Positions 6,910-48,742 of a stretch of DNA of 64,000 nt are shown here, piece after piece. This DNA comes from Rhizobium sp. ACO-34A (lineage in GTDB: Bacteria > Pseudomonadota > Alphaproteobacteria > Rhizobiales > Rhizobiaceae). Below the pieces are notes generated by a model. That model was given only the letters and a program-made list of their open reading frames with translations. It was not told the origin of the DNA and made no database searches. The position numbers and the translations under genes were made by a program. Position 1 is the first letter of the stretch; each line of letters begins with the position of its first letter. The stretch lies in contig CP021372.1 in NCBI GenBank assembly GCA_002600635.1, positions 265,001-329,000 of the forward strand, written 5' to 3'.

Positions 6910-8730
6910 TCATGCGGGAAACGACAGGTAGGGGTTGTTTGGCGGCACCTCATCGAAAATCCGATGGGGATCGTTCAGCAGATAACCGTGCAGCCGCCGG
7001 GATTTTCTCGGCCCGGTGACTTCGCAGACCCAGATGTTCAGGCCGCTCGGCTGCTTGCGGTGCAGTGACAGTTTCTCGAATCGCTTCTGAACCCATTGCC
7101 AGTCGGCAACCTTGTCGGCCCTGGCGAGCTGGCCGACCTTCAGATGCTCCTGCGCATATCGCTGGAACAGGCCGGGGCTGACCAGATAAGCCGTATCGTC
7201 GACCGTATGGACCAGAGCCTTGGCGTCGTTGATGATGAGCTTCCGGCTTTCGATGCGCTGACGCAGCCATGCCATGAAATGTTCCCCGGAAGGCTCGGCC
7301 TGGCTGAAATCGCGAGAAGGTTCCGGTTGAACCGGCAAAGCCTTTTTCACAGGAGGTTCCGCAGCGGTTGGCTGTGTAGGATTTCCAAAATCGACCGGCG
7401 GTAATATGGGCGTTTCGGTTTCAGGGCTGTCGAACATATCCAGCAGCGCGCTCACCGCATCGTCCTTCGAGGGCGGGTGCTGGATTGGCGTGAGATTTTC
7501 GGGCGCTGTCTGGACAGCGGCGTTGGTCGATAACTGCGAACCTGATGTTGTCGCGGGAGCCTGTTCCATCGTTTCCTCGCCCTCCTGGACGACCTCGACG
7601 GAGCCGGAGAATGCCGCAGGACGCTCGCCGTTTTCCCATATCAGCGCCGGAGAAAGCCGCAGCAGCGTAAATGTATGCGACCATCCCTGGTCACCTGTCA
7701 CCGCGGCTTTCCAGATCGCCTTGCCCTCCGGTGTGGCCTGGACGATTCCGTGATCCTGAAGCACGCTGAAAACGGCCGTGTTGTTGGAGGGAATGCCTTC
7801 GATCCCCTGCGACAGCAGATGTGCCCGTAACTTGTCGGAGACGGTCTTGCTGACCAGCCAGAGAGTGTCTTCGGTCAGCCAGCCATCCGATGCCTGCGGC
7901 TGGTTGAGCTTCAGTTCTTGCCTGAGAAGATAGCGCAGCCCTTCGAGTAGCTTGCGCTGCAGCGCGTGTTTCGGGGCCGCCATGGCGCGGGCCGGATCGC
8001 CGCCGAGTTCCTGCGCCACCGAAGCCCGGTCGGCCTGTATCACCAATTCGCCCAAAGTGCCGGCATGTTCGTACTGGCCGGCAAGGACATAGAGCAGCGA
8101 CGACCACACCGAGGGATAATGGCTGAGCCAGTCGAGGATTTCCCGGTCGAGCACCTGATTGTAGAGAAGCCCCGTCGCGGCGGCATGGAGGCGATAATCG
8201 CGGTCCTTGCGATAGCGGAAGCGGTAGGGAGCGCGTAGAGGGCCATGCCATGGATGCCATGCGCTGCCGTCAGCCAGTTCGACATGCAGATCCACCGCGA
8301 TCTTGCCGACGTCGTGCAGCAGAGCCGCATAGGCCGCGGCGGTCGTCCATGCCTCCGACTGTTCAGACTGCTCCTCTGGCGTCGTCCCTGCTGGCAGCAG
8401 GTGCGACTGCCGTAGCTTGAGCGCATAGGCGACGATCTCCAGCCCATGATCGAGCATTCCGCCGGGAAAGGCGTGGTGATGGCTTTCCGAAGCGGGGAAC
8501 TGCTGGACCAGTTCCGCATAGCGTTCCAGGGGTCCACGATACAGGATGGCGAACTGCTGGCGCGACAGGGACGTCCGCTGCCAGATGTGTTCGATGAGTT
8601 TTTGCCGGCGCGGTGTCGCCAGCAGGGAGGCGGACTTTTCCGGACGGATCAGCCCTTTGCCTTTTTCCTCCGGCATCGTCAGTGCGGTTGTAGCTGGCGA
8701 GGGACGTTTTCGCTGAAGCAATGTGAACAT
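6910..8730 (-). CDS. traI: MobH-family relaxase (TraI_2/HD type)
   Basis: The conjugative relaxase that would nick at oriT and lead the transferred strand. The N-terminal domain (about residues 30-330) is HD-like: HHAFPGGMLDHGLEIV near residue 90 and ALLHDVGKIA near residue 140 supply the metal ligands. The middle is Pro/Glu-rich and linker-like. The C-terminus (about 490-606) is the conserved DUF1528-type domain (EPSGEHFMAWLRQRIESRKL, then YLLNDP). MobH relaxases belong with MPF_G transfer systems, which agrees with the tra genes downstream. The start at 8730 (MFTLLQRKRP) is the conventional one. oriT is expected near; I could not identify it. Confidence 0.93.
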   Translation of the reverse strand: MFTLLQRKRPSPATTALTMPEEKGKGLIRPEKSASLLATPRRQKLIEHIWQRTSLSRQQFAILYRGPLERYAELVQQFPASESHHHAFPGGMLDHGLEIVAYALKLRQSHLLPAGTTPEEQSEQSEAWTTAAAYAALLHDVGKIAVDLHVELADGSAWHPWHGPLRAPYRFRYRKDRDYRLHAAATGLLYNQVLDREILDWLSHYPSVWSSLLYVLAGQYEHAGTLGELVIQADRASVAQELGGDPARAMAAPKHALQRKLLEGLRYLLRQELKLNQPQASDGWLTEDTLWLVSKTVSDKLRAHLLSQGIEGIPSNNTAVFSVLQDHGIVQATPEGKAIWKAAVTGDQGWSHTFTLLRLSPALIWENGERPAAFSGSVEVVQEGEETMEQAPATTSGSQLSTNAAVQTAPENLTPIQHPPSKDDAVSALLDMFDSPETETPILPPVDFGNPTQPTAAEPPVKKALPVQPEPSRDFSQAEPSGEHFMAWLRQRIESRKLIINDAKALVHTVDDTAYLVSPGLFQRYAQEHLKVGQLARADKVADWQWVQKRFEKLSLHRKQPSGLNIWVCEVTGPRKSRRLHGYLLNDPHRIFDEVPPNNPYLSFPA

Positions 8731-24100: not shown

Positions 24101-24451
24101 CTATTTTGCCTGGAATTGTGTTCGTTGCGCCCCAAGTCCGAAAAACCGCAGAAGGGCGAGATTGACGGTCTCCATGGCCTGCGCGTCCAGACGCCCGAAC
24201 ACGGCTCCGGCCTTTGCGCGCGGCACAGTCATGGCCCGATCGATCATGATCTGCGAGGGCTTACGCAAACCATTATTGGCGTCCGGCTGGATTGTGATCC
24301 GAACCAGATGCTCCTCACGAACGTCGCTTGTCAGTTGGAGCACCGTAACGGACGGCAGTTCGGTAAAGGCGTCATCCTGCACCACGAGCGCCGGCCATGG
24401 TTTGCCGTAGTCGCCACTCACGGCGATCGTAATCAGGTCACCGCGTTTCAT
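24101..24451 (-). CDS. MazF/PemK-like toxin
   Basis: 116 residues of the PemK/MazF endoribonuclease type: MKRGDLITIAVSGDYGKPWPALVVQDD, then VTVLQLTSDV, then LRKPSQIMIDRAMTVPRAKAGAVFGRL. The order is antitoxin first, with a 4-base overlap. The likely role is to stabilise the element or limit growth of cells that lose it. Intact. Confidence 0.9.
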   Translation of the reverse strand: MKRGDLITIAVSGDYGKPWPALVVQDDAFTELPSVTVLQLTSDVREEHLVRITIQPDANNGLRKPSQIMIDRAMTVPRAKAGAVFGRLDAQAMETVNLALLRFFGLGAQRTQFQAK

Positions 24452-24750
24452 GCCTTCCCGTCATCTCCGAACTGGTCTTCGTCGAACAGCGCGTCCAGTT
24501 CCTTGAGGGACCGCGCTTCGTCGCTATCCGGATCACGAGCGCGTTCGGCTATCGCGAGAGATTGCTTCCGTGCTTCGGCCTCGAAGGCCTTCCGCCGCTG
24601 ATGCTCGACATAGGCCCGCATGAAATCCCGCAGCACCTGGGCGGCCGGCTTGTCCTCTGCTTCCGTTGCTTGCGTAAACGCAGTCTTCAGCGCAGGATCG
24701 ATCCGGAAGTTGAAGGTTTCGGCCTTGGGATGTTGGGTCGCTCTCGGCAT
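24448..24750 (-). CDS. Antitoxin of the PemK-like toxin
   Basis: 100 residues: MPRATQHPKAETFNFRIDPALKTAFTQATE is a ribbon-helix-helix start, followed by a helical acidic tail ending DALFDEDQFGDDGKA that would bind the toxin. The ATG at 24750 is preceded by aggagg, so the longer open frame to 24930 is not used. A perfect palindrome lies 32 bases upstream of the ATG and may be its operator. Confidence 0.88.
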   Translation of the reverse strand: MPRATQHPKAETFNFRIDPALKTAFTQATEAEDKPAAQVLRDFMRAYVEHQRRKAFEAEARKQSLAIAERARDPDSDEARSLKELDALFDEDQFGDDGKA

Positions 24751-24781
24751 ACCAGCCTCCTGTAGTGCGAAATGCACGTAT

Positions 24782-24795
24782 AATGTAATTACATT
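24782..24795. promoter_or_regulatory. 14-bp perfect palindrome, likely TA operator
   Basis: aatgtaattacatt is its own reverse complement and lies 32 bases upstream of the antitoxin start, where ribbon-helix-helix antitoxins usually bind to repress their operon. The surrounding bases are AT-rich in an otherwise GC-rich region. Confidence 0.5.
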
Positions 24796-24874
24796 TTCGT
24801 GAAGTTGCAATCCGCTATGCCAAGGAGGCGGTTCAGCCCGTTCAGTGCGGATATCATACCTCCAACCACTTCCT

Positions 24875-25624
24875 TCATAGATATTTCTTGAAGCTTCCCG
24901 CAAACACATCCATCGCGATCCCGAGCGCAATGGCGCTCGGCAGCAGGATCAGCAGCGGGCTGATGCTGATCGGCAGGGCAAGATAGATCACCCACGGCAG
25001 AACAGCGAGTGGCATCAGCGAGGCTTTGGCTCGGTGGTAGACGAAGCCCGATTCCCGGCCGGCACCGAATCTACGGATATCACGCCTGACCAACCCGTCG
25101 ACCAGCCCGGCGAAGGTTGCCAGCAGGAAGAGCGGCAGGGTGAGCACCAGCACCAGCAGGCGGACGATGAACACGAGCAGCACGAACGCAGAGGCAATCA
25201 GGTAGCTCTCGGTCCAGACGTAGACCAGGCTGATGTAATAGCGAAAATCGCGGGCAGCGCCGCGAGCGGGCGCGCTGGCCTGTTCGGACGCTTCGACTAT
25301 CCATTGTGACAACCCACTTTTGACGAATATCCAGTCATAAGCTTGCTCCACCAGCCAATGGGCCGTCCGTCCCGGTTCCTGCACGATGGCGCTGCGGGTA
25401 AAATGCGCCGAGAGCTGGGCCAGTTCATAATCGAGCATGTTGGAGGCATGGTGCCAGCCTTCGTCCGGCCAGAAGAAGTACATGCCAACGCATTCGATGG
25501 CGATGCTGATCAGCAGCGAGCCGGCAAGCACACCGAACAGACGGAACGGCAGGGTGATGAGGCCCGTGATCAGCCCCTGCTGGCGATCCTGCTGTCGCGC
25601 GGCGGCCGCGGCCGGATCGCTCAT
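24875..25624 (-). CDS. TIGR03747 ICE membrane protein
   Basis: 249 residues, with membrane segments near 17-48, 140-180 and 205-240. Conserved parts are GMYFFWPDEGWHHASNMLDYELAQL and DFRYYISLVYVWTESYLIASAFVLL, then GLVDGLVRRDIRRFGAGRESGFVYHRAK. This fits TIGR03747, a partner of the coupling protein. Its start overlaps the traD stop by 4 bases. Confidence 0.92.
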   Translation of the reverse strand: MSDPAAAAARQQDRQQGLITGLITLPFRLFGVLAGSLLISIAIECVGMYFFWPDEGWHHASNMLDYELAQLSAHFTRSAIVQEPGRTAHWLVEQAYDWIFVKSGLSQWIVEASEQASAPARGAARDFRYYISLVYVWTESYLIASAFVLLVFIVRLLVLVLTLPLFLLATFAGLVDGLVRRDIRRFGAGRESGFVYHRAKASLMPLAVLPWVIYLALPISISPLLILLPSAIALGIAMDVFAGSFKKYL

Positions 25625-27789
25625 GATCCAGCCTCATGCCTATCCTTGTCCGTTTCAAGATTCTGGAAGCTGTCGAGCAGGTCGTCGGGCAGGGCCGCAT
25701 CCTGAAGGTCGGGAATGCCCTGATTGTCCCACCAGTCGGTCGCCTCGACATAATGTTGACGCATATAACCGGCGAGTTGCTGCAGGTCCTTCGGCATTTC
25801 CTCATCGGGATCTGGCGCGGGGAGCGGCATTCTGACCTTCCAGAGATTGCCGCCCTCCAACAGAGCGAACGCCTGTCCCTTCGGCAGGCCGACCACATGC
25901 GCGGGTTCGATCAGTGGCACGGTCGAGCTGGTGATGCGATCGGCCGTGTTGCTGGTGAAATCCGTCTTGCCGTGAATGTCGGAGCTGTCGGTCGCGCCGC
26001 TGACGATGGAGGTCGTATAGACCTCGACCCTGGGCAACTGCCGCGTCAGCAGTTCGGCGGTGATGGTTTCGCGCACGCGCAGCATGAACAGGTTGTTGAA
26101 ATTTCCGACAATCTGCCCGGCCTTGGCGCGGTTTCCGATCCGCGCTTCGATATCGCTGAGCGTCTGGGTATAGGCGGTGACCTGAAGCCCTGCGCCACCC
26201 CCTTTGTTGACCATGGGGATGAACTCGTCGCCCATCAACTCGTTGAACTCGTCGGCATGGACATTGATCGGCACCTTGGCCCCGGCGTCGGCGCCGGGCA
26301 GGCCATCGTCAATCCCGAACTTGTAGATATGGCCGGCCACCGACACGAGATCCGAAAACATGCTGTTGCCGACGGCGGCGGCAACCTCGGCGTCCGAGAG
26401 CGCATCCAGCCCGACATAGACCACCGCCCGTTTCCTGATGATCTGCATCCAGTCGAAGATCGGGCGGGGATCGCGCAGGTCGGAATAGTTGGGGGCGAGC
26501 AGTTGCGACGTCTTGCCGGTGGTGAGCTTTTCCAGAAGCGGCAGGAGCGAAGCGACGATCTTGTCAAAATAGGTACGGTCATAACGGACCGCCGATCGAA
26601 GCCCGTCAAGAACAGGGTCGAAGATCCGGACCTGCGACAGATATTGTTCGAGGGCAACAACGCGCTTCTCGCGGCCAACCATGTGGCGTGGGATGTTCTT
26701 GTCGTTCAGCTTCGCCTCGATCTGCACTATGATTTCCCATGCCTTCGGCTCGTGCTTCGCGAAGAATGCCTGCGCATATTCGATGAACAAGGCGTCGATA
26801 TTGACCACATGTCGCTGGATCAGCAGGTAGTCCGGCCGCTGTCCCAGCTCGACCAAAGCCCTCGCGATGATGTTGACGAAGCGCCATGCAAATTCGCGGA
26901 AAGCGGCGGAATTGCCTTCGCCGGAAAGCTGCCCGGCAATGCGGGTCGCGACCTCGGAAATCCGCCCGAACCGGCCGACGGCATTGTAGCGTGCGGAGAA
27001 ATCCGGCCAGCCGAGATGGAAGACGTAGAACTCGCCGGCACGACCGGCACGTTTCGCCTCGACATACATGCGCTTCAGCAGGTCCGCGTCCCCTTTTGGG
27101 TCGAAAACGATGACCACCTCATGCTCGCCACTGGCGCTGCGGCGGCGGATGTCCTGCGTGATGAACAGTTCGGCAAGCCTGGTCTTGCCGACGCGGGTGG
27201 TCCCGAGCACGAGGGAATGCCCGACGCGCTCGCCGAGCGGCAGGGTGACGTCGATCTCATGCGGCTCGATCCCGTGCAGGCGCGGCATGCCGCCAACCGG
27301 CGGCAGCGGACGCACTGGATTGAGTGGGCTATCCCACGATGTCAGTCTGGCGAACTTCGAGAGCGGGAACGGTGCGAACTCCAGACGCTGCTCGAGGCGG
27401 CGGGCGAAACGATAGAGTGGCGTCGGCTCGACATAGCCGCGGAACTCCGGCCGATAGGTCTGCATCAGCCGATGGGTGTGCCGTTGCTCCCATTTGAAGC
27501 CACGACCGATGAACAGCCTTTGGCGGCTGACGGGAACGGCGCGGCTGGTCATGACATAGCGGGGCAGGCGGCGGATATTGCGACGGTAGCGCAGGATTGC
27601 CAGCGCATCGCGCAGGCGGATCGCGCCGAAGGTCAGGAAGGTAAAAGAGGAACAAAGCCCCAGAATAGGGTTGAGCGCCAGCGACCAGGGCGCGACCAGG
27701 CAGACCAGTGCCGCGCCGATGCAGACCGCGACGATATAGAGTTCTACGGCGGGACGAAGCAGCACCTCGACCGAATGGGGATTGGCCAT
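25621..27789 (-). CDS. traD: Type IV coupling protein TraD (TIGR03743)
   Basis: A 722-residue VirD4/TraD-family ATPase that brings the relaxase-DNA complex to the secretion channel. There are two N-terminal membrane segments (within residues 10-60). Walker A is LGTTRVGKTRLAELFI near residue 196, and Walker B is around INVHADEFNELMGDEF. The C-terminal part reads AYTQTLSDIEARIGNRAKAGQIVGNFNNLFMLRV. The length is usual for TIGR03743. Intact. It follows TIGR03765 with a 10-base gap. Confidence 0.95.
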   Translation of the reverse strand: MANPHSVEVLLRPAVELYIVAVCIGAALVCLVAPWSLALNPILGLCSSFTFLTFGAIRLRDALAILRYRRNIRRLPRYVMTSRAVPVSRQRLFIGRGFKWEQRHTHRLMQTYRPEFRGYVEPTPLYRFARRLEQRLEFAPFPLSKFARLTSWDSPLNPVRPLPPVGGMPRLHGIEPHEIDVTLPLGERVGHSLVLGTTRVGKTRLAELFITQDIRRRSASGEHEVVIVFDPKGDADLLKRMYVEAKRAGRAGEFYVFHLGWPDFSARYNAVGRFGRISEVATRIAGQLSGEGNSAAFREFAWRFVNIIARALVELGQRPDYLLIQRHVVNIDALFIEYAQAFFAKHEPKAWEIIVQIEAKLNDKNIPRHMVGREKRVVALEQYLSQVRIFDPVLDGLRSAVRYDRTYFDKIVASLLPLLEKLTTGKTSQLLAPNYSDLRDPRPIFDWMQIIRKRAVVYVGLDALSDAEVAAAVGNSMFSDLVSVAGHIYKFGIDDGLPGADAGAKVPINVHADEFNELMGDEFIPMVNKGGGAGLQVTAYTQTLSDIEARIGNRAKAGQIVGNFNNLFMLRVRETITAELLTRQLPRVEVYTTSIVSGATDSSDIHGKTDFTSNTADRITSSTVPLIEPAHVVGLPKGQAFALLEGGNLWKVRMPLPAPDPDEEMPKDLQQLAGYMRQHYVEATDWWDNQGIPDLQDAALPDDLLDSFQNLETDKDRHEAGS

Positions 27790-27799
27790 GACGGATGCC

Positions 27800-28351
27800 T
27801 CATTGCTCGATGCCGGTCGCGGTGATCAGCACGGGATAGTGGCGAAGGCCGAGCCGACCGGCGAGATCATCGCCGGATGAAGGGGAAAGCGTCAGGCCGC
27901 CGGTGAGCTTGCGCAATTCGGCCAGTGCTTCCGGCGTCTCGACATTGACCACCAGGCCAATGGCGTTCAGGTCGCGCAGGATCTCGCCGCGTTCTCCGAG
28001 CCAGGAGCGGGAGCGGTTGTCGTCGCCGATCAGGAAGATCGGGGTCAGACCCGGTGCCTGGATCACCCGGCGCGGCTCCTCACCCGGCGACAGGCGTTCC
28101 GAGCGCACCGGCAGCATGTCCGCCTCGGAATAGGGTTTTGCGGGAAGTGGTGCGATGGTGATCGGCGGAAGGGGCTGACCTTGCTTCGGCGGCAGATCGA
28201 ATGCCTGGTAGAATGGCAAGGCCGAGACGCCGCCGTGATCCTCGACCACGATCAGCGGCAGTGATTGAGCGGATGCCGGCGAACCGCCGAACGGTGCCAG
28301 GATGGCGAGTGCGGTTGCTGCCGTGAGGAAGGCAGGTCGATGGATCATCAT
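27800..28351 (-). CDS. TIGR03765 ICE protein
   Basis: 183 residues with a signal peptide (GGSPASAQS). The mature part LIVVEDHGGVSALPFYQAF, then LPVRSERLSPGEEPRRVI, then IFLIGDDNRSRSWLGERGEILRDLNAIGLVVNVET fits TIGR03765. The N-terminal extension resembles a RecA-independent pilus accessory, but the role is unknown. It is coupled upstream to the VUT gene by a 4-base overlap. Confidence 0.9.
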   Translation of the reverse strand: MMIHRPAFLTAATALAILAPFGGSPASAQSLPLIVVEDHGGVSALPFYQAFDLPPKQGQPLPPITIAPLPAKPYSEADMLPVRSERLSPGEEPRRVIQAPGLTPIFLIGDDNRSRSWLGERGEILRDLNAIGLVVNVETPEALAELRKLTGGLTLSPSSGDDLAGRLGLRHYPVLITATGIEQ

Positions 28352-28926
28352 GGATCGCTCCTTGCGCTATGTTCGGAAGATGCTGGGTGGGAGATATGTG
28401 GCTGGTCGGGTCGCCTATGCAGACAGGCAATGACCGGAGCCGCGAACAGGCTGAGCCACAGCTTTCCGATCACCTGTCCGGCGAGAAAATCGAACGATCC
28501 GAAAGCGAACCAGAGGAAGACCGCGCTGTCTGCAACTGAACCCGCGATCCCGCTCGCGAAGACGGCAAGACCGGGCCTGTACTGCCGGAGCGGCGTATAG
28601 ACGATCAGGTCCGCCAGTTCGGCCAGCAGGAAGGCGGAGACGGACGCAACGACGAGTGCCGGCGGTGCGACCAACCAGGAGAACATCCCGCCGATGGCGA
28701 TGGCCCGGAGCGCCGCACGAATGCCTCCGGCGTCCTGAACCATATCGCGCAGGACAAGCGCCGCCCCGACTACCAGGACACCGCTCGGCGCCGTCAGGCC
28801 GAATCCGACCGGGACCGTGCAAGGTCCATTGGGCAGGCAGGTGGCGCCGACATTACCGATCATCCAGTTGGCGAGCGGAACTGTTGCGGCAAACGCTGCT
28901 ATCAGGGCGATGGTCCTAAGCCGCAT
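28348..28926 (-). CDS. VUT/YhhQ-type transporter
   Basis: About 192 residues and five or six membrane segments. It starts MRLRTIALIAAFAATVPLANWM, and the family signature APSGVLVVGAALVLRDMVQ is followed by LLAELADLIVYTPLRQ and AGSVADSAVFLWFAFGS. The VUT family (PF02592) includes E. coli YhhQ, a transporter of the queuosine precursors preQ0/preQ1. It overlaps the TGT-like gene by 11 bases and TIGR03765 by 4, so it is translated with both. Importing a 7-deazaguanine precursor for the two enzymes upstream is the obvious hypothesis; the substrate is not proven. Confidence 0.85.
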   Translation of the reverse strand: MRLRTIALIAAFAATVPLANWMIGNVGATCLPNGPCTVPVGFGLTAPSGVLVVGAALVLRDMVQDAGGIRAALRAIAIGGMFSWLVAPPALVVASVSAFLLAELADLIVYTPLRQYRPGLAVFASGIAGSVADSAVFLWFAFGSFDFLAGQVIGKLWLSLFAAPVIACLHRRPDQPHISHPASSEHSARSDP

Positions 28927-29623
28927 GGAACAAATCCCCCTGAATGGTTCGTTCGGTCCATGTGACCGGGCTCTGGACGGCATCGATGCGCCGGGCCATC
29001 CGCTCCGGGCAGGTTTCCGATCCGATGTTCTTGAAGTTGCGGGCGACGTTGGCGCTGTCGACCGAGGCGAAGGGCCAGCGGTCGCCTGCAAGCCGGAGAC
29101 CTCGCAGCATATGGACCTTCAGCCAGGGGAGATGACCGTGCCGGGAAAGGGTGTTGAATGCTTCATCGGCCCTGCGCCGCCAGCTATCCGAACCGACCTG
29201 CCAGTAGCGGCCGGAACTGCCGAAGCAGATGCGCGGCCAGCGGTCGGCGATTTCGAGCAGGTAATCGGTCGGCAGCGCCATATGCCAGACAGGCGCTCCC
29301 GCCACCTTTGGATAGGGCCATTCACCAACCAGGGCACGCTGGTCCTCTATCGTGCCGTCGATCACATCGGGGATGACGGCCCAGTTCTCACCGCCGAGGC
29401 GCGGTTCCAGCCAGCGGTAATATTGCTCCCATTGGACTTCATGCTCGCGCGTGAAGGCGGAGAACGCGCCGTTGTCCCACATCACGGATTGCCCGTGGGC
29501 GAGGCACCAGTCGGCATCTTGCGGAGCAGCGAAGGAAACGCAGAAATGCTTTCCGGCCAGCTTTTCCAGTTCGGGTCGTGGGGTGAGCGGCGTGCCATGA
29601 TAATGCAGCATTGGCCACCTCAC
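28916..29623 (-). CDS. TGT-like (DpdA-like) base-exchange protein
   Basis: 235 residues. I read it as a reduced tRNA-guanine-transglycosylase-like TIM barrel. D50-N-G-A-F54 corresponds to the D-S-G-G-F motif of TGT/DpdA, VIPDVIDG (83-90) to a following strand motif, FGSSGR (134-139) to the glycine loop, VHMLRG (170-175) to the H-G-F/L element, and SVDSANVAR (187-195) to S-A-D-S of DpdA proteins. The zinc-binding Cys cluster of tRNA TGTs is absent. DpdA proteins put 7-deazaguanines into DNA. Neighbours are a PP-loop ATPase (4-base overlap) and a YhhQ-like transporter (11-base overlap). The assignment is from motif reading, not from an alignment. Confidence 0.65.
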   Translation of the reverse strand: MRWPMLHYHGTPLTPRPELEKLAGKHFCVSFAAPQDADWCLAHGQSVMWDNGAFSAFTREHEVQWEQYYRWLEPRLGGENWAVIPDVIDGTIEDQRALVGEWPYPKVAGAPVWHMALPTDYLLEIADRWPRICFGSSGRYWQVGSDSWRRRADEAFNTLSRHGHLPWLKVHMLRGLRLAGDRWPFASVDSANVARNFKNIGSETCPERMARRIDAVQSPVTWTERTIQGDLFHAA

Positions 29624-30699
29624 GAGGATGTCGCATCAGATGTGATGAGATCGAATGTGTGGGATGGCTCCTCATGCCATTCGCAGAGCGCCATGTCGGA
29701 ATTGCAGCCGCTGCCGGTCTGGCTGTCGAAGAACAGTTCGTATTGCCGGCCGCCGCGGCTGGTCCGGCTCCATTCAACAACGGTGTGAATGTCGGCGTAG
29801 GTGCCCGGCCTGTCCGCATCCATCGGGTCTTTCAGGGCTGCGAAGAATGTCGAGACGCGGCGTTTATTGGCGGCCGAGACGATCGCCTCCCATCGCGCCA
29901 CGCGCTTGATATGCTCGGGAAACCTTGTGGCGATCTGCCGAAGCTCGCTCTTGGCGCAGTTGATGCAGGGCATGCAGCCGACGCGGCCCATGCCGAGTGA
30001 ATACAGAGGATTCGGAGCGAGGCCATGCCGACGGTGCATCGACCATACATCGTCAACCGACCACTGGAAGATCGGTCGCCAGAGCATGGAGCCGCTGTCA
30101 TGGCGGTTCCACACGGGCAGCTTTGCCCGGTTGCGGCTTTCCGCGGCGCGAATGCCCAGCCATTGCAGGACCGGCCCGTGTCGCAACATCGGGAAGACGA
30201 CCTCCAATGTTATCGGCTGGGACTTGAGCTCATCCGTGCAGAATTGTGCCATCCGCGACGGGAACCTTCCTTTGCATATGCACAGGTCGAGGAAGGGAAT
30301 GCCGGTCGGCTGGTTGAGGGTGGCAGCCTCGGCAACGATCGCGTCGGGAACACCCTGTTTCGGCCATTCCCGCAGAATGTATTCGCGATGCCGGGCAATC
30401 CGTTTTGAGAAATCGGCGCAGACGATCTCGATCTCCGGACCGCCCGTGCGCTCGGAGAGACGCGAGATGAACTCGTAGGTGATCTCGTGCTCATGGCCGG
30501 TGTCGGCGAACACCGCCCGAAAGGGGATGCCGGCCTCCAGCGCCAGCAGATAGACGGCGGTGCTGTCCTTGCCGCCCGAGACATTGATCAGATGCTGGAA
30601 CAGATCGGCGCCGGACGCCTGCCGATTGCGAAACAACGAATGCCGCGGGCGTCTCGATGATGGATAGGAGCGGCGGCGCGGAACGGTGAGGCATGTCAT
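29620..30699 (-). CDS. PP-loop ATPase, PAPS-reductase family
   Basis: 359 residues. The PP-loop SGGKDS is at 41-46, followed by FADTGHEHEITYEFI. The central part PFLDLCICKGRFPSRMAQFCTDELKSQPI, and GCMPCINCAKSEL with Cys242, 245 and 248, are typical of DndC-like and phage PAPS-reductase-like proteins, which adenylate substrates or carry an iron-sulfur cluster. True PAPS reductase is unlikely on an ICE with no sulfate genes. The first 30 residues are basic and may contain an overlong start. First gene of the cassette; it begins 3 bases after the lytic transglycosylase stop. Confidence 0.85.
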   Translation of the reverse strand: MTCLTVPRRRSYPSSRRPRHSLFRNRQASGADLFQHLINVSGGKDSTAVYLLALEAGIPFRAVFADTGHEHEITYEFISRLSERTGGPEIEIVCADFSKRIARHREYILREWPKQGVPDAIVAEAATLNQPTGIPFLDLCICKGRFPSRMAQFCTDELKSQPITLEVVFPMLRHGPVLQWLGIRAAESRNRAKLPVWNRHDSGSMLWRPIFQWSVDDVWSMHRRHGLAPNPLYSLGMGRVGCMPCINCAKSELRQIATRFPEHIKRVARWEAIVSAANKRRVSTFFAALKDPMDADRPGTYADIHTVVEWSRTSRGGRQYELFFDSQTGSGCNSDMALCEWHEEPSHTFDLITSDATSS

Positions 30700-30702
30700 G
30701 GC

Positions 30703-31269
30703 TCACTCCTTCCGGCTGGCGGAGACGCCGAGCACACGGGCGAGATGCTGGCCGACGCTCCGGCGATAACGCGCGGCGGGCGCGCCGCCGGCGGGCCGGT
30801 GATAGCGCCCGATGGCGAGCATCCATTCTTCGCCGGGATTGTGCTGTTCGCCCAGAATCTCGGCGGCGATCACCAGGTTGCGATAGGGATCGAGCAGGTC
30901 GCAGGGATGTTCGTAGCGTTGCTGTTGATAGCCGAGATTGATCTGGCCGAGGCCGACATCCACGCGGGAAGGCGGTGCTTCCTGCAAGGCCCGCTGCAAT
31001 CCGATACAGGCTTCGCCTTTACTACCGAAGCGGCGGGCCTCTCCTGCCACATTCAATGTCCACGGCCAGGGCGTGATGCGGTCGCCCTGCCGGATACCGC
31101 TTTCCTGCAAGGCGACCGCATAGAGCACGGGTGACGGTATGCCGGCGCGCTGCGCGGCGATCTGATATGCTGGCGGCGGAATTTCCTGCGCGGACGCCGC
31201 AATCGTGCCGACCATGCCGATGGCTAGCGTCATGGCCGACAGAGCAAGCCGGGTTACTGCCGCTGCCAT
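30703..31269 (-). CDS. Lytic transglycosylase (VirB1-like)
   Basis: 188 residues with a signal peptide ending ASAQE. SLT-type domain: RAGIPSPVLYAVALQESGI holds the catalytic Glu, and DVGLGQINLGYQQQRYEHPCDLLDPYRNLVIAAEIL the typical following motif. It would open the peptidoglycan for the transfer channel. It overlaps the TIGR03759 stop by 16 bases. Confidence 0.92.
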   Translation of the reverse strand: MAAAVTRLALSAMTLAIGMVGTIAASAQEIPPPAYQIAAQRAGIPSPVLYAVALQESGIRQGDRITPWPWTLNVAGEARRFGSKGEACIGLQRALQEAPPSRVDVGLGQINLGYQQQRYEHPCDLLDPYRNLVIAAEILGEQHNPGEEWMLAIGRYHRPAGGAPAARYRRSVGQHLARVLGVSASRKE

Positions 31270-32012
31270 TGCCCGTTCACCTGCCGCACGACTGCGGGCA
31301 GGTCTCCTTCAAGTCCGAGCGACAGCCAGCGGCCGGAATCGTGGTTCAGAGTGATTGCGCCGCTGCGTACCCTGACGGGATCGATCTGGATGCCTTTGGC
31401 CCAGTCGCGGATGCGGGCATCGTCCTGCCGGGTGCCGACCATATAGAGGTCGAATTCCGTGCCGGCCGATTGCAGCCTCTGCACCGCCTGGCCGCAGGCG
31501 GGGCATTTGTCCTTGACGAAGACGGCGAGCCGGCCCGATCCGGCGGGCGTTGCCTGGAGGTCGGCGAGTGAGGCGCCGACGCGCTCCATGCCGGGATGAA
31601 GCCGCTGCCAGGCGTCGTCATAGGCACGCTGATAGGCGAGCAGTCTCGCGACCCGGCGCGCTTCGATTCCCACCTGCAATTCCGCATAGCGGCGGCGTTC
31701 CTCGTCGGTGCTGGCCTCGATGCCGAGCGTCGTCAGCGGATCGAGATTGGGGGAGTAAACCCCGAGCGGTCCCTGCATCAGCGAGCGATATCGGGTCCAT
31801 TCCTCTTCGCGCAGCCCCCAGTCGCTGGCTTTCTGCGTGTCGCTATAGCCGGTGAAGCCGGGTTGCTCGCGGCTCGGAAGGATGGTCGAGGATGTGGCGG
31901 ATGCGTCCTCAGCGTTCGCGGTGTCCGAAAGCAGAACCGAAGGGGAGATCGACAGGGCAATGGAAAGGATAATGCGCCTTGTGCAATGAAGGGAGGCGGG
32001 CATGATCGTCAT
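31254..32012 (-). CDS. TIGR03759 ICE protein
   Basis: 252 residues with a signal peptide cleaved near ANAED. Conserved parts are ASDWGLREEEWTRYRSLMQGPLGVYSPNLDPLTTLGIEA and a thioredoxin-like domain with FVKDKCPACGQAVQRLQ (C-x-x-C) in the second half. TIGR03759 is a periplasmic MPF_G protein of unknown role. Two possible starts lie within 4 codons. It overlaps the PilL-N gene by 4 bases. Confidence 0.92.
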   Translation of the reverse strand: MTIMPASLHCTRRIILSIALSISPSVLLSDTANAEDASATSSTILPSREQPGFTGYSDTQKASDWGLREEEWTRYRSLMQGPLGVYSPNLDPLTTLGIEASTDEERRRYAELQVGIEARRVARLLAYQRAYDDAWQRLHPGMERVGASLADLQATPAGSGRLAVFVKDKCPACGQAVQRLQSAGTEFDLYMVGTRQDDARIRDWAKGIQIDPVRVRSGAITLNHDSGRWLSLGLEGDLPAVVRQVNGQWQRQ

Positions 32013-32599
32013 GAGCGTGCCTCCGCCGTCAGTGGGCGGCGCTCGACACGCCCGGCGGCATGGCTCCCCGCCTGCTGTTGCGGAAACACCGGACTGAAAT
32101 CCGGAGCGGCGAAACGGGTGAAGCAGACCGTGCGTGCCCCGTCGTCGACACTCAGGTTCCAGGCGGAACCGGAGAGCGTCAGCAGCGCATCGCGCAGCAT
32201 CAGTGGGCCGAGACGATGATGGGAGGCGGGCAACGGCAGGGCCGAGAGCGTGGCGACGTCATCATTGGAGCAGAGTTTGTAACCCGACCGGGAGAGCACC
32301 TGCCGCAGCGCCTCACCGACGGTGGCCTTACGGGTCTCGGGAATGGAAACCTGGACCACCTGCCGCATCAGATCCCGTTGCGCCGACGCCGGTGCAAGCT
32401 CGACCAGCGTATATCGGCCATAGCGAAGCACGGGGATGAAATCCGGATCGCGCTCTACGGGCGGGATGGACGCCTTGAGCATCGGCGGCGGTTCGGGCGG
32501 CGCATCCGTTGTGGTCGAGCATCCGCTGATGATCGCGGCCGTGGACAGCAGCGAACTCAAACCTGCAAGATGATGGCGAAATCGGCGGGCAAGGCACAT
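32009..32599 (-). CDS. PilL N-terminal domain lipoprotein
   Basis: 196 residues. A basic N-terminus and lipobox-like IISGCSTTT (Cys27) precede the PilL_N-type region: VLRYGRYTLVELAP, RDLMRQVVQVSIP, VGEALRQVLSRSGYKLC, then LTLSGSAWNLSVDDGARTVCF. It resembles the N-terminal part of type IVB pilus PilL of PFGI-like ICEs. Only this piece of the pil cluster is in the window. First gene of the transfer operon, so the main tra promoter is expected upstream of 32599. Confidence 0.88.
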   Translation of the reverse strand: MCLARRFRHHLAGLSSLLSTAAIISGCSTTTDAPPEPPPMLKASIPPVERDPDFIPVLRYGRYTLVELAPASAQRDLMRQVVQVSIPETRKATVGEALRQVLSRSGYKLCSNDDVATLSALPLPASHHRLGPLMLRDALLTLSGSAWNLSVDDGARTVCFTRFAAPDFSPVFPQQQAGSHAAGRVERRPLTAEARS

Positions 32600-37833: not shown

Positions 37834-39424
37834 ATGCCATTGTACTCTCAATTCCGTTCAACCGCGTTTACTGTGGCTCTCGCCGCAACGGTGTGGATCG
37901 GCCCCTTTGTGGCTGCGGTTACCGCGCAGGAACTGCGCGTTGCGACATCCTATAAACTGATGACGCTCGACCCGCATTTTGCCGACCTCAACGAAAACAC
38001 GTCGTTGCTCTCTCACATCTATGAACGGCTCGTCTATCAGGATGCGCAATTGAACCCGCAGCCAGGACTCGCGACCTCCTGGCGGCAGGTGTCGGATAAG
38101 CAATGGGAGTTCAAGCTTAGGGAGAACGTACGCTTTCATGATGGCTCGGCGTTCACGGCAGCGGACGTTATCTATACGATCGAGCGCATCCGTGACTTTC
38201 TCAAGCCGCCGACCAGCGCCTTCCGGCCCTACACGCAGTCGATCACGTCTGTCACCGCGCCCGATCCACTCACCGTCGTGATCGAGACCAGCGAAAGCGC
38301 GCCCACGCTGCCTCTTTCGATGTCGTCAATATTCATCATGCCGAAGAAGGAGGATGGCTTCGTGACGACCGAGGCGCTGAATGCCGGAACCTTGCCGGTC
38401 GGGACGGGGCCGTACAAATTCGACTCCTGGCAGTCGGGCGAGCAGATCAGGCTTGTACGAAACGACGATTACTGGGGCGGGAGGCCCGTCTGGCAGGACG
38501 TGACGTTCCGTGTGATCGAAAGCCCGGCCGCGCGTGTGGCGGCGCTAACGGCTGGCGATGTCGATCTCGCCGACTACGTCCCGGCTCGCGACGTCGAAGC
38601 GCTGAAGAGCCGCGGGTTGAATGTCGCAAGCACCAGCGCTGCACGCTCCAACTTCCTTCAGTTCGACATGAGCCGGGACAAGCTTCCGGGGTAACGGACA
38701 AGTCAGGAAATCCGATAGCGAACCCTTTCCGGGACAAGCGGGTCCGACAGGCACTGGAGATGGCCACCGACAGGCCGTTCATCGTCGAAAAAATCCTGCT
38801 CGGATACGGCACGGCCGCGGCACAACTCTTTCCGCCCGACCTTCCCGGCACGTCCGCCAAGCTTACGGTGGAGCCGCCGGATTATGACGGCGCAAAGGCT
38901 CTGCTTGCGGAGGCGGGTTTTCCGGACGGTTTCAATCTTGTCCTCGGCGGGCCATCGGGCCGATATCCGGGCGACGGCGAATCCTTGCAGGCGATCGCGC
39001 AGAACTGGGCCAGGATCGGCGTCGGGGTCAGGCCGGTCGCGGCTCCGTTCTCCGTCTTCATGACGCAGCGCTCGAACGGCGAGTATCCCGCTTGGTACAT
39101 CGGCTGCTCGGGGAAACGGTGACGCTTTGCCTCGACGCCGTGCTCGCCTCACCGAATGCGGAGCGTGGGAGTGGTTCGACAAACTGGGGCGGCTACGCGA
39201 ATCCGGCCTTCGAAGAAATGCTGGCGAGCGCCAAGGCGATCCCGGAAGGCCCGGAACGGAACGAAGCGCTGGCACGGGCGACGGAATTCGTCATGGCCGA
39301 CTACCCGATGCTGCCGCTCTACCACTTCCATCTCATCACCGGTTATGGCCCGGCCGTCTCTTCCTACACGGTGCATCCGCGCGGATGGACGACGGCCATG
39401 CAGGCCGTGCCGGCGGCAGAGTAG
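37834..39424 (+). pseudogene. Oligopeptide-binding protein, two frameshifts
   Basis: An SBP_bac_5-family periplasmic binding protein: signal peptide ending VTAQE, then LRVATSYKLMTLDPHFADLNENTSLLSHIYERL, LPVGTGPYKFDSW and the final AFEEMLASAKAIPEGPERNEALARATEFVMADYPMLPLYH. The frame changes near 38690 (a run of four G) and again near 39110, so the gene as sequenced is in three frames. Both switches could be genuine mutations or homopolymer errors. It heads an intact permease-ATPase set and would have supplied its ligand specificity. Confidence 0.85.
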
Positions 39425-39437
39425 GGGGGGCGGTGCC

Positions 39438-40409
39438 ATGCTGGCCGTCATCACAGGAAGGCTATCTGAGGCCTTCCTTCTTCTCTTCGTCATGTCGTTA
39501 ATCGGGTTCGTCGGGATCCATAGTGTCGGCAACCCCGTCTATAACATGGTCAACATCGAAACCGCGACGGCGGAGGACATCCGGCGGGCGACGATCGCGC
39601 TCGGCCTGGATCAGCCCGTCTGGCGACAATACCTTCTTTTTATCGGAAACGTCGCCAGCGGAAATTTCGGGAGATCGTACATCTACCACCTGCCGGCCTT
39701 CGGCCTGGTGATGAGCAAGCTTCCCGCGACGCTTGAACTGGCGGCGATCGCCATGCTGATCGCGGCGCCGGCCGGGACGCTGCTCGGGCTCATTGCCGGG
39801 CGCAGGCAGGGAAGGGCTGTCGACCGAACGATCCTCAACGGGAGCGTGTTCGCGCTGAGCATTCCGTCGTTCTGGTTGAGCATGGTGTTGATTGTGCTCG
39901 GCGCGATCCTTGTCGGCTGGTTCCCCGCGGGTGGCAGAGGACCCACGGTGACACTGCTGGGATATGACTGGAGCTTTCTGACGCTCGCCGGGCTGAAGCA
40001 GCTCACGCTGCCTGCCCTGGCGCTTGCCATCCCGAACATCGCCCTGATCGCACGACTGGCGCGGTCGGGCACGATCGAGGTCGAGGCGCTGGATTTCACC
40101 CGGTTTTGCCGCGCCAAGGGGCTCTCGTCCCGGCGTATCCTCCTCCGGCACACCTTGCCGAACATCAGCATCCCGATCGTGACGATCGTCGGCATGCAGT
40201 TCGGCGGCATGCTCGCCTTCGCCGTCGTGGTGGAGTCGATCTTCGCCTGGCCCGGCGTCGGCAAGCTGCTGATCGACTCGATCCAGCTTCTCGACCGTCC
40301 CGTCGTGATGGCGACGCTGACGTTCATATCCGTCGCCTTCATCGGGCTGAATGCCCTCGTCGATCTGTTCTACGCCGTGCTCGACCCGCGCGTGCGTCTC
40401 TCCGCATGA
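39438..40409 (+). CDS. Peptide ABC transporter permease (DppB-like)
   Basis: 323 residues, six membrane segments and the inner-membrane permease motif EALDFTRFCRAKGLSSRRILLRHTLPNISIP (EAA loop). It starts MLAVITGRLSEAFLLLFVMSLIGFVGIH, the usual DppB/OppB start. I used the ATG at 39438, 14 bases after the binding-protein stop; the frame is open upstream but overlaps it. Confidence 0.93.
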   Translation: MLAVITGRLSEAFLLLFVMSLIGFVGIHSVGNPVYNMVNIETATAEDIRRATIALGLDQPVWRQYLLFIGNVASGNFGRSYIYHLPAFGLVMSKLPATLELAAIAMLIAAPAGTLLGLIAGRRQGRAVDRTILNGSVFALSIPSFWLSMVLIVLGAILVGWFPAGGRGPTVTLLGYDWSFLTLAGLKQLTLPALALAIPNIALIARLARSGTIEVEALDFTRFCRAKGLSSRRILLRHTLPNISIPIVTIVGMQFGGMLAFAVVVESIFAWPGVGKLLIDSIQLLDRPVVMATLTFISVAFIGLNALVDLFYAVLDPRVRLSA

Positions 40410-40422
40410 GAAGGGAAGCCCC

Positions 40423-41298
40423 ATGAAAGCAGAAACGATCCGCGCACGATGGCCGCGTCCGAAGAGATATGGCATTACCTTCTCGAAATGCTTGCTGGCC
40501 ACCTATATCCTGCTTGCGGTGGCGGCGCCGCTAATCGCGCCGCAGAACCCGTATGACCCTTTGCAAATCTATGGCTGGGAGGCGTCCTCTCCTCCGGGCG
40601 CAGCAGGGACCGGCGGCTACATCTACCTGCTCGGGACAGACGGTCTCGGGCGGGATATCGCCAGCACCATTCTCTACGGTCTGCGCATAAGCCTGGTCGT
40701 CTCGATCACCAGCGCCGTCGTCGCGGCGGCGATCGGCCTTACCGCAGGTGTCTGCGCCGCATGGTCCGGCGGGTGGATCGACGCCGCCATCATGCGGCTG
40801 GTCGACCTGCAACTCAGCCTCCCGACGATCCTGGTCGCGCTCATCGCCATCGTTACGCTCGGCCCCGGTATCGATCGGATCATCCTGGCGCTCATCATCG
40901 CCCAGTGGGCGACTTACGCGAGGATGGCGCGCGGGGTGGCGCTGAGCGAGATCGGCAAGCCATATCTCGACGCCGCACGTTTGCTGCGGCTGCCGGCATG
41001 GAGGATCATCTTCAGGCATCTCCTTCCCAACAGCATAGCTCCCGCCGTGACGCTGATTCCGATCGAACTGGGACATGCGGTGGCGCTGGAAGCGACCCTG
41101 TCGTTCCTCGGCCTCGGCGTTCCGATCGACAAGCCATCCCTCGGATCGACGGTGGCGAACGGGTTCCAGTATCTCATGACCGGTCAATACTGGATCAGTC
41201 TGTTCCCCGGCCTCGCGCTGTTCGGGCTGATCGCAAGCATCAATTTCGTCGGCGAAGACGTACGGCGCCGTCTCGACCCAAGGAACCGTTCGTTATGA
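40423..41298 (+). CDS. Peptide ABC transporter permease (DppC-like)
   Basis: 291 residues with a conserved N-terminus (LLATYILLAVAAPLIAPQNPYDPL), LLGTDGLGRDIASTILYGLRISL and the EAA loop GKPYLDAARLLRLPAWRIIFRHLLPNSIAP. ATG at 40423 after aaggga. Its stop overlaps the ATPase start by 4 bases. Confidence 0.93.
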   Translation: MKAETIRARWPRPKRYGITFSKCLLATYILLAVAAPLIAPQNPYDPLQIYGWEASSPPGAAGTGGYIYLLGTDGLGRDIASTILYGLRISLVVSITSAVVAAAIGLTAGVCAAWSGGWIDAAIMRLVDLQLSLPTILVALIAIVTLGPGIDRIILALIIAQWATYARMARGVALSEIGKPYLDAARLLRLPAWRIIFRHLLPNSIAPAVTLIPIELGHAVALEATLSFLGLGVPIDKPSLGSTVANGFQYLMTGQYWISLFPGLALFGLIASINFVGEDVRRRLDPRNRSL

Positions 41299-42980
41299 TG
41301 TCAGAATTCAAACGAGTCCCGCTTCTCGAGGTCAGCAATCTCACCCTGAAACACCATGCCTCGACCGGACCGACGACGATCCTGCGGGATGTCAGCCTTG
41401 AACTCGGACGCGGCGAAATCCTCGGCGTCATCGGCGAATCCGGCGCCGGCAAGTCGACTTTGGGAAACGCCATTCTCGGCCAGCTCGCACCGGGGCTTGA
41501 GCGAACCGCCGGCGCTATCCGTTTCGAAGGAAAGGCACTCGGCGACAAGGATGGACGACAACGAGACGGCATACGGGGACGCAGGATATCCGCCATCTTT
41601 CAGGATCACACGGCTTCGCTCGACCCGCTGATGACCATTGGTGCGCAGATAGAGGAAACGATACGCGCGGCTCGCGGGAATGCCTCGAGGCGGCAGGCTC
41701 GTGAGCACGCCCTCGCCCTGTTGTCCCGCGTCGGCATCCCCGATCCGGATGCGAGGTATCATAGCTATCCGCACCAGTTCTCCGGAGGTCAGCGGCAGCG
41801 CGCCGTAATCGCTATCGCACTTGCAAGCGATCCGGATGTCATCATCGCCGATGAGCCGACCTCCGCCCTCGACGCGACGGTCCAGAAACAGATCCTTGGG
41901 TTGCTTCGCGGTCTCGTTGACGAGACGCATGTGTCCATCGTTCTCGTCACGCATGACATGGGCGTGATCGCGGAGATCGCCGACAGAGTTCTCGTCATGA
42001 GAAACGGCGAGGTCGTGGAGCAGGATGCAACGGCAATTGTTCTCGATTCTCCCCGGAATGACTACACGCGAAGCCTGCTCGCGGCCGTACCACGGCTGCG
42101 CATCTCCCCACCCGAAATGTCTGACGCCACAGGTGGGGACGCAGGGGCCTCGCCGTGCGGGTGTGCCCCCGGATCGCATGAGGCTGCTCCTATCCTCGTG
42201 GCACAAGGCGTTACGAAGGCCTTTGCGGTTCCTGGCTTTGCGCACTGGTTTTCCAGGAACAATGCCAAACCAGCGTTGCAGGATGTGTCGGTCCGGTTGG
42301 GCCGCGGCGCAATCACGGGGATCGTCGGCGAAAGCGGAAGCGGAAAGACGACCATCGGCCGGATTGTCGCGGGTCTGGAGACGGCCGGCGAAGGGAAGAT
42401 CGAGATCGACGGCGCCGTGTTCGATATCTCACGGCCGAGACGACGCAGCGGCCTGCTCGGCCGGGTTCAGATGATCTTCCAGGACCCGGCGGTGTCCCTC
42501 AACCCGAGAATGACCATCCGTGAGACCCTGGAGGAGAGCGTCCGATACGGTGCCAAACGCGAGAGCGGCCCGGTCATGCCCGACGCGGGTGCGATGATCG
42601 ATCGACTGGGATTGGCGCGTGCCCTCATGGAACGCTACCCGCATCAACTCTCCGGCGGGCAGAAGCAGCGTGTATGCATTGCCCGCGCACTTCTTGCCAG
42701 GCCGCAGATCATCGTGGCAGACGAGCCCACCTCCGCACTCGATGTCTCCGTGCAGGCGGAGATCGTCTCACTCCTGAAGGAGAGCATCGCCGAGGAGGGG
42801 ATATCGATGTTGTTCATCTCGCACGATCTCGCGCTCGTGCAGGACCTCTGCCGCGCGATCTACATCTTCAAGGACGGCAGGGTCGAGGACTTCGGTTCCC
42901 CGGATTTCATCTTTCTGCAATCACGAAATCCGTACACCCGCAGCCTGATCGATGCACGTTCCCTGCGGTTCACGCACTAA
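41295..42980 (+). CDS. Fused double ABC ATPase (DppD-DppF-like)
   Basis: 561 residues with two complete nucleotide-binding domains: the first with IGESGAGKSTLG, the signature FSGGQRQR and ADEPTSALD; the second with VGESGSGKTTIG, LSGGQKQR and ADEPTSALD. It replaces the separate D and F subunits. The ATG at 41295 overlaps the permease stop. The gene is complete. Confidence 0.94.
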   Translation: MMSEFKRVPLLEVSNLTLKHHASTGPTTILRDVSLELGRGEILGVIGESGAGKSTLGNAILGQLAPGLERTAGAIRFEGKALGDKDGRQRDGIRGRRISAIFQDHTASLDPLMTIGAQIEETIRAARGNASRRQAREHALALLSRVGIPDPDARYHSYPHQFSGGQRQRAVIAIALASDPDVIIADEPTSALDATVQKQILGLLRGLVDETHVSIVLVTHDMGVIAEIADRVLVMRNGEVVEQDATAIVLDSPRNDYTRSLLAAVPRLRISPPEMSDATGGDAGASPCGCAPGSHEAAPILVAQGVTKAFAVPGFAHWFSRNNAKPALQDVSVRLGRGAITGIVGESGSGKTTIGRIVAGLETAGEGKIEIDGAVFDISRPRRRSGLLGRVQMIFQDPAVSLNPRMTIRETLEESVRYGAKRESGPVMPDAGAMIDRLGLARALMERYPHQLSGGQKQRVCIARALLARPQIIVADEPTSALDVSVQAEIVSLLKESIAEEGISMLFISHDLALVQDLCRAIYIFKDGRVEDFGSPDFIFLQSRNPYTRSLIDARSLRFTH

Positions 42981-43079
42981 ACGCGTCGGCGAATCTCTTC
43001 CAGGAAGGAGTAGCCGGCAACAGCTTTCTTGCACCTTAGCTGAAACGAGCGGCAGACCGACGCCGTAGAAAGGTAAATC

Positions 43080-48139: not shown

Positions 48140-48163
48140 GGTGATGCTCCATAAAAGAACAGG

Positions 48164-48208
48164 GCACGCACCGACCCCTGCGGGGCGATGGACATGCCCC
48201 AGGGGGTG
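48164..48208 (-). promoter_or_regulatory. Two-hairpin leader RNA (copy B)
   Basis: Minus strand: ccccctgggg, then a longer stem with apical gccccgcaggggtc and flanking gca/tgc. It lies 25 bases before the helicase start. Same architecture as copies A, C, D and E. Confidence 0.55.
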
Positions 48209-48252
48209 AAAAGGATGGGAAGAGAGAGGCGGCGTTCAGCCGTGGATGATGT

Positions 48253-48656
48253 TCAGTGCCGTTGAGGCGACATCAGCGTGGTGATGCTGCGGCTGCTGTC
48301 AGTGATGATCCAGAGCGTCAGGTCCGGTTCGATCTCGTAGATCGAGAACAGCCTTTCTTCTCCGGTTGCGACGGCGTTGTCGTTGTCCTGCCAGCCTGCG
48401 TCGTACTGATCGCCCCAATCACATTTGAGATGGCGGCGAAGATAAGGGGCCGGGTCGAGCCGGCCACGTTCAACCAGATCGGCGATGCTGGTCGTGAAGG
48501 CAATCTGGCCGGCTGGAAACTTCGGCTGCGGCAGTTGCGAAAGACTTTCAAGTATCGCGGCCTGGTTCCTGGCTTGAGGCCATGCCCCCTGAAGTTCAGG
48601 ACGCCGAATTTGAATGGTTGCTTGCGCGGGTCTGTACCTGTGTATTCGGATGCCAT
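48253..48656 (-). pseudogene. Small ICE protein, apparent frameshift
   Basis: The start at 48656 (MASEYTGTDPRKQPFKFG, with ggagcg upstream) and the end in the next frame (LESLSQLPQPKFPAGQIAFTTSIADL, then RLDPAPYLRRHLKCDWGDQYDAGW) must be joined by a frame change between about 48540 and 48640. The second part is a clear paralogue of the next gene (48743-49039): both have RLDP.PY.LR.H...DWG and a WQ/EN spacing. Unknown function. Confidence 0.6.
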
Positions 48657-48680
48657 GATGGACGCTCCTTCGGTGAGAAG

Positions 48681-48724: not shown

Positions 48725-48742
48725 ATGAGGATTGATGCAGGT

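Follow-up and report, generated by a model that had tools for sequence, protein, structure and literature searches.

A 64,000-nucleotide stretch of the Rhizobium sp. ACO-34A genome (contig CP021372.1, positions 265,001 to 329,000; the window) carries an integrative conjugative element of the MobH/PFGI-1 class, recognised by matches to a MobH/TraI relaxase, TraD, TraC and TIGR037xx proteins. Inside its transfer operon lie three genes, all on the minus strand, predicted to encode a PP-loop ATPase, a small DpdA-like base-exchange protein related to tRNA-guanine transglycosylase (TGT; this middle protein is also called the barrel) and a YhhQ-like transporter (Table 1). A sequence-only reading of this DNA had placed the trio tightly among the transfer genes, and the coordinates that it gave were borne out. 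The PP-loop gene starts 3 bases after the end of the SLT transglycosylase gene, the middle gene overlaps the YhhQ gene by 11 bases, as that reading had it, and the YhhQ gene overlaps the PFL_4695 gene by 4 bases. The 4-base overlap proposed between the PP-loop and middle genes, and the length of 235 amino acids, hold for a GTG start at 29623. A start at ATG 29611, with GAGG 6 bases 5' of it, is more likely; it yields 231 amino acids, at or near the size of the database copy P0001 and of many relatives, and turns the overlap into an 8-base gap. The G+C content of third codon positions is 0.72-0.77 in the trio versus 0.74-0.81 in five transfer genes measured, a similarity that gives no sign of recent arrival.

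The arrangement is conserved in a second element. In Rhizobium subbaraonis the nine genes that begin with PilL2 and end one gene beyond TraD come in the same order, and the trio sits complete in the same position, which speaks against a chance arrangement. Against this relative, the ratios of nonsynonymous to synonymous substitution rates (dN/dS) of the trio are about 0.14, 0.15 and 0.23 (dS 0.73-0.82, dN 0.10-0.19), and six other operon genes gave dS of 0.58-1.08 and dN of 0.05-0.29. Judged from these comparisons, the trio seems to have diverged along with the element under purifying selection. These two are the PFL_4695 elements in 394 sampled Rhizobiaceae genomes, and both hold the trio in the same order. 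A third instance is likely, since the database gives 3391 bases as the longest contig both for a barrel (P0002, 90%) and for a PP-loop protein (P0123, 81%).

Other PFGI-1/TOL-type elements share the order TIGR03759-SLT-PFL_4695-TraD and differ in the absence of the cassette from the stretches compared. Ten of 398 genomes sampled from the phylum had PFL_4695 matches: the window's own, eight above the cut-off and one below it (G042). We compared the eight above-cut-off loci (9-12 kb each), leaving G042 out. SLT abuts PFL_4695 in seven (-123 to +18 bp); the eighth gave no BLAST match to SLT, and there TIGR03759 and PFL_4695 lie 749 bp apart. No trio gene was matched in any of the eight stretches. 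Given this adjacency and absence, the three genes appear to have been inserted into the operon in this lineage.

The sequence and the modelled fold of the middle protein predict membership of the DpdA family typified by phage 9g, with a TGT-like barrel. It matches phrog_887 (1.1e-42), as does 9g DpdA, and its family aligns with 9g DpdA at an hhalign E of 6.6e-7 over 90 columns. The motifs DNGAF, VIPDVIDG, FGSSGR and SVDSAN, from which a TGT/DpdA barrel had originally been read, are all found in that order. The structure model (predicted local distance difference test, pLDDT, 89.6; predicted template modelling score, pTM, 0.87) agrees: every one of the 50 matches listed in a VIA structure comparison was TGT or Cap10. 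The structural outcome that the sequence-only reading had named as a refutation, a model other than a TGT-like barrel, thus did not arise. Five residues (D50, D86, H171, R174, D189) never vary across the 74 rows of either of two alignments, which have many rows in common. By analogy with TGT, we take Asp189 to be the nucleophile, Asp50 the acid/base and Asp86 the residue of base recognition. D50 and D189 align with aspartates of 9g DpdA, and H171 with its hallmark histidine, H196. In the parts of the source available, this conserved histidine 196 of 9g-type DpdA is described as missing from DpdA2 (Hutinet 2019), which argues against the DpdA2 (nt-1 type) family for the middle protein, no direct comparison having been made.

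No CxCxxC zinc cluster is present in the middle protein (cysteines only at 28, 40, 133 and 205), as had been claimed. The 9g protein likewise has none (Cys 91, 139, 214 and 253), so the missing cluster does not set the middle protein apart, and we dropped the idea that a zinc-less barrel marks a new family. At E <= 1 the protein had no Pfam match, to the TGT family PF01702 or any other, and a search of solved-structure sequences with the barrel sequence returned no match. The two DpdA-type proteins do differ in other respects. That of 9g is longer (317 versus 235 amino acids) and is encoded beside genes for FolE, QueD and QueC, none of which was found among the window neighbours scanned; the middle protein, unlike it, resides in a conjugative element and is paired with a transporter.

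This pairing with a transporter recurs in viral genomes. Across 85 barrel loci, which include the best 80 of 571 viral relatives, a YhhQ profile search found YhhQ within 1 kb and on the same strand in 71. Clustering at 90% identity leaves 65 loci, 52 of them with YhhQ, and of the 69 loci with at least 1 kb on either side 61 have it. YhhQ lies upstream of the barrel in 40 loci and downstream in 31, so that a single inherited gene order does not account for the pairing, and two sorts of YhhQ are involved, with scores near 1e-70 and near 1e-15. Viewed from the transporter, in the best 80 of 272 viral YhhQ loci (a set that overlaps the first in contigs, so that the two are not mutually independent) the barrel adjoins YhhQ in 71. 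The remaining nine comprise one contig edge, one locus (L275) with the phiLM21 protein matching phrog_1279, 'queuine tRNA-ribosyltransferase', and seven loci with a third type of protein directly upstream of YhhQ. The third type has DNG, PDV, GG, VHxGR and D in barrel order, and the one member scanned falls in phrog_15826, a function-unknown family; we read the type tentatively as TGT-like. In other words, if profile matches and named families are counted, viral YhhQ stands beside a TGT-like protein in 72 of 80 loci, and in 79 with the motif-based third type added. A control set, the best 80 of 544 viral loci with a PP-loop gene (flanks up to 6 kb), held no barrel, YhhQ, third type or phiLM21 type. 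Closer to the window, an alignment-based search found the barrel in 5 of 394 Rhizobiaceae genomes, and YhhQ adjoins it in all five; a search with one sequence alone across 397 genomes from the order returned only the window's own copy and may therefore have missed some. The YhhQ partnership of the barrel is thus far stronger than the sequence-only reading knew.

Some loci link the barrel to 7-deazaguanine synthesis directly. In L048, L078 and L083 a QueC gene (PF06508; E 1.2e-41, 2e-42 and 8.6e-42) lies directly upstream of the barrel gene and YhhQ precedes it; L078 and L083 are nearly alike at their starts and are perhaps one lineage. The QueC proteins have about the median size that the available text of PMC13329287 gives for Cap9. 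A QueD-like gene (22.5 bits, cut-off 22.4) overlaps the barrel gene of Caulobacter phage DMCA.

Further small genes occur near the barrel. One encodes a protein of about 80 amino acids with a CPxD motif (S1; one member in phrog_37496), found at L003 5765-5995, L014 4678-4914, L066 2837-3151 and 18 other loci. It is near the barrel in 21 of 98 barrel-set loci and occurs in 9 of 80 YhhQ loci (sets that share contigs) and 0 of 80 control loci; it is possibly a T-fold protein like QueF or GTP cyclohydrolase, one member having Pfam matches at E 0.06-0.07 only. A second (S2; GGLEPRFI motif, one member in phrog_9572) is found at L002 6690-6947, L003 5512-5754, L004 6723-6974 and L234 3760-4002; it occurs in 5 of 98 barrel-set loci, 10 of 80 YhhQ loci and 0 of 80 control loci, and accompanies different TGT-like types. 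On a Bradyrhizobium plasmid (L019 4582-4998) an annotated nucleoside 2-deoxyribosyltransferase gene overlaps the barrel gene.

The PP-loop protein is less firmly attached to this module. By family match and fold it fits PF01507, the family of phosphoadenosine and adenosine phosphosulfate (PAPS/APS) reductase-like proteins; it misses the CysH-type NCBIfam cut-offs (60.9 versus 154, 44.2 versus 165.1 and 43.2 versus 235.3 bits) and stays below that of QueC/Cap9 PF06508 (17.1 bits, cut-off 22). We consider it an even bet that two unrelated sets of phage passengers met here, the PP-loop gene being separate in origin and work from the barrel-YhhQ pair and acting in sulfur or nucleotide metabolism. 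Arguing for this are the 80 control loci, the three of five Rhizobiaceae barrel-YhhQ pairs from which the PP-loop gene is missing, and five Rhizobiaceae loci with a PP-loop relative of 50-53% identity that hold neither barrel nor YhhQ. Counter to this, both elements in the 394 genomes hold all three genes in the same order and with similar dN/dS, L014 and L053 have a PP-loop gene of another subtype overlapping or next to the barrel gene, and QueC is so placed in the three viral loci described above. In addition, neighbour ORFs (open reading frames) formed 355 cluster representatives, and in a Pfam scan of 100 chosen neighbour ORFs PF01507 was the commonest family (5, weak matches included, at least one being the L078 QueC). 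PP-loop genes of the window's sort were seen at 7 of 98 barrel-set loci and 3 of 80 YhhQ loci (E <= 1e-3); with 0 of 80 from the PP-loop side, these counts do not support the PP-loop protein as a standing component of the viral module. The search for the trio elsewhere thus points to a common viral pair, not to a three-gene system of its own. Separate passengers would concern the PP-loop protein only, and are compatible with our preferred explanation of the pair.

A PP-loop protein together with a TGT-like barrel also recalls Cap9 and Cap10 of the type IV cyclic-oligonucleotide-based antiphage signaling system (CBASS), as set out in the accessible parts of PMC11996544, PMC13329287 and PMC13279940. 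The two window proteins could act in this way, placing a 7-deazaguanine on a partner's N-terminus or binding it. This seems very unlikely: none of the eight operon proteins scanned matches a CD-NTase (cGAS/DncV-like nucleotidyltransferase), the PP-loop protein is nearer to APS/PAPS reductases than to QueC, and the viral barrel occurs far more often with the transporter than with a PP-loop protein.

The host genome (6.28 Mb, 100% complete, 0.64% contamination) provides a context for import. A QueD profile search of it gave 0 hits. QueC gave two weak partial hits, one barely above the cut-off (22.7 versus 22 bits, model positions 2-61), which on their sequences we read as MnmA-like and NAD-synthetase-like ORFs; a Caulobacter control was positive for both QueC and QueD. 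QueF (9.0e-32), QueA (4.4e-122), TGT (1.3e-152) and a chromosomal YhhQ (1.4e-13) are present. With no QueD hit and, on this reading, no true QueC, the host seems to depend on precursor that it salvages, and an importer on the element would make sense in such a cell; that the host already has an importer of its own tempers this value. The element's transporter matches PF02592 (Vut_1; COG1738 family) with 34.1 bits (cut-off 27.2), and E. coli QPTR (YhhQ) is described in the available part of its report as carrying 7-cyano-7-deazaguanine (preQ0) and 7-aminomethyl-7-deazaguanine (preQ1).

Dependence of the host on uptake could also mean that the cassette only feeds it 7-deazaguanine as a nutrient, element DNA staying unmarked. 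We regard this as the most improbable of the readings considered, because a transporter alone would suffice, the host has its own, and the viral transporter hardly ever stands without a base exchanger. Somewhat easier to entertain, though still unlikely, is a tRNA route, in which the imported base is a queuosine precursor and the barrel works on tRNA as a mini-TGT without RNA-binding domain, tuning translation during transfer or infection. The barrel fold matches tRNA TGTs, host QueF, QueA and TGT could make queuosine from the salvaged precursor, and the substrates of E. coli QPTR fit. Set against it, a second tRNA enzyme would be redundant in a host with full-length TGT, and both PHROG membership and the hallmark histidine group the barrel with 9g DpdA, which, according to the available part of the published account, modifies DNA and does not complement an E. 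coli tgt mutant.

We favour, at a probability of about 0.55, a phage-derived 'import and insert' 7-deazaguanine cassette that has become part of the transfer operon in a MobH/PFGI-1-type element and marks element DNA. Its basis is the modelled fold together with the conserved residues, the gene linkage, conservation across two elements and the gene content of the host. YhhQ would import bases of the preQ0/preQ1 type into a host unable to make them, and the small DpdA-type barrel would use TGT chemistry to put that base in the place of guanine, DNA being the likeliest target. Given their position inside the transfer operon, the genes should be made together with the transfer machinery, and marking would be timed to transfer. 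Element DNA marked around transfer may then be less easily cut by restriction enzymes of the recipient. The PP-loop enzyme might tailor the imported base, or do an unrelated job dependent on ATP or sulfur.

Several observations weigh against this reading. D86 is aligned to a serine of 9g DpdA, near an LDG motif. A barrel profile against solved-structure sequences gave one chance row only (E 0.9), and Foldseek alone put generic triosephosphate isomerase (TIM) barrels first, none at E <= 0.001. The transporter does not reach the TIGR00697 cut-off (9e-9; 35.4 bits, cut-off 50.95). Linkage in the best 80 of 571 viral relatives is linkage near this branch. Named records speak against a general rule of pairing: phage records with the barrel number 104 and those with this sort of YhhQ 14, and YhhQ is found at 3 of 11 phage and plasmid barrel loci (L001-L003) and at none of L004 and L014-L020, which include three enterobacterial phages (L016-L018). 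Between the phiLM21 type and the barrel hhalign detects no similarity (probability 4.1), and the former is called TGT-like from its PHROG name; the third type aligns weakly with the barrel family (probability 52.6, E 1.4e-4). Phages with DpdA but no preQ0 genes give mixed precedents in the available parts of Hutinet 2019. DNA of Mycobacterium phage Orion, with a lone DpdA, has no modification, neither phage nor host having a preQ0 pathway. Salmonella phage 7-11 contains 2'-deoxy-7-amido-7-deazaguanosine (dADG) at 50 +/- 2 per 10^6 nucleotides, a very low level of about 0.02% of G, and those parts describe no knockout of its dpdA gene.

Phage 7-11 encodes a clear relative of the middle protein (tblastn 1e-19, hhalign E 4.3e-28, 31-32% identical). 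This is probably the protein that the authors call DpdA, since it is the sole place in 7-11 matched by the query. The window trio differs in including YhhQ, none being annotated in 6.5 kb around the 7-11 relative. The same source, as far as available, states that some phages encode YhhQ without correlation with a group, and that modification in lone-DpdA phages is difficult to predict (Hutinet 2019). Bacterial dpd islands (dpdA-K) also use a TGT-like enzyme for DNA, and a preprint on them puts YhhQ in about 9%. They differ from the window, where no dpdB, dpdC or restriction gene was matched among the eight operon proteins scanned.

Published work already covers DpdA, the lone DpdA of phages and YhhQ in phages. 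A literature survey, mainly of titles and the starts of abstracts, found no paper on the trio, on a YhhQ-DpdA pairing rule or on a DpdA-type enzyme in a conjugative transfer operon. The sequence-only reading likewise knew of no characterised system with these three genes. It needs correcting in two points: the three genes do not make up a separate system, the pair being a common viral module, and a relative of the middle protein stands in phage 7-11, which the literature already credits with a lone DpdA. DNA with 7-deazaguanines has been described in phages and in bacterial dpd islands, and a conjugative transfer operon would be a new setting, in which the cassette might hide element DNA from the next host's defence systems. 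For lone-DpdA phages, the near-fixed viral pairing of YhhQ with a TGT-like protein offers a simple testable rule (import, then insert). A bolder version, which we hold to be rather doubtful, is that the element, unable to count on its host for the base, writes a salvaged, diet-dependent one, perhaps changed further by the PP-loop enzyme into an undescribed one, into the DNA that it sends. The disguise would then depend on what neighbours excrete. In this version phage YhhQ would also chiefly feed DNA base exchangers, so that scavenging rather than synthesis would be a common route to modified phage DNA.

Table 1. Genes of the trio, neighbouring genes of the element and selected genes of viral loci (window positions unless a locus is named)
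Feature	Position	Strand	Evidence
PP-loop ATPase, PAPS/APS-reductase-like, 359 amino acids	30699-29620	-	SGGKDS motif; conserved C140, C154, C242, C245, C339
DpdA/TGT-like base-exchange protein (predicted), 235 amino acids from GTG	29623-28916	-	phrog_887, model, invariant residues
YhhQ/QPTR-like transporter, 192 amino acids	28926-28348	-	Vut_1 4.4e-8, above cut-off; phrog_4899 2.5e-37
Transglycosylase SLT, upstream neighbour in transfer operon	30703..31269	-	PF01464
TIGR03759 conjugation protein	31254..32012	-	5.2e-82
PilL2 of PFGI-1-class elements	32009..32599	-	TIGR03748 7.4e-38
PFL_4695 family element protein, downstream neighbour	27800..28351	-	TIGR03765 4.3e-40
TraD coupling protein, TOL type	25621..27789	-	TIGR03754 1093.7 bits
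MobH relaxase, same element	6910..8730	-	NF041494 and TIGR03760 above cut-off
Third-type protein	L234 3147-3770; L236 2557-3150; L246 3376-4008; L247 3370-4008; L250 3415-4005; L272 3369-3980; L304 2958-3584		
QueC upstream of barrel, 182 amino acids	L048 5456-6001; L078 5444-5989; L083 2823-3368		

Elsewhere in the window, two overlapping ORFs within the transfer region (24101-24930) resemble, by eye, a PemK/MazF-type toxin and its antitoxin. Genes of a peptide/nickel-type ABC transporter (solute-binding protein, permease, ATPases) and of a PGA_cap protein adjoin the transfer genes at 37834-44318. On the minus strand at 45869-50218 lie genes for a helicase (ResIII/SNF2/Helicase_C) and a DUF6094 methyltransferase, possibly belonging to the element core or to defence.

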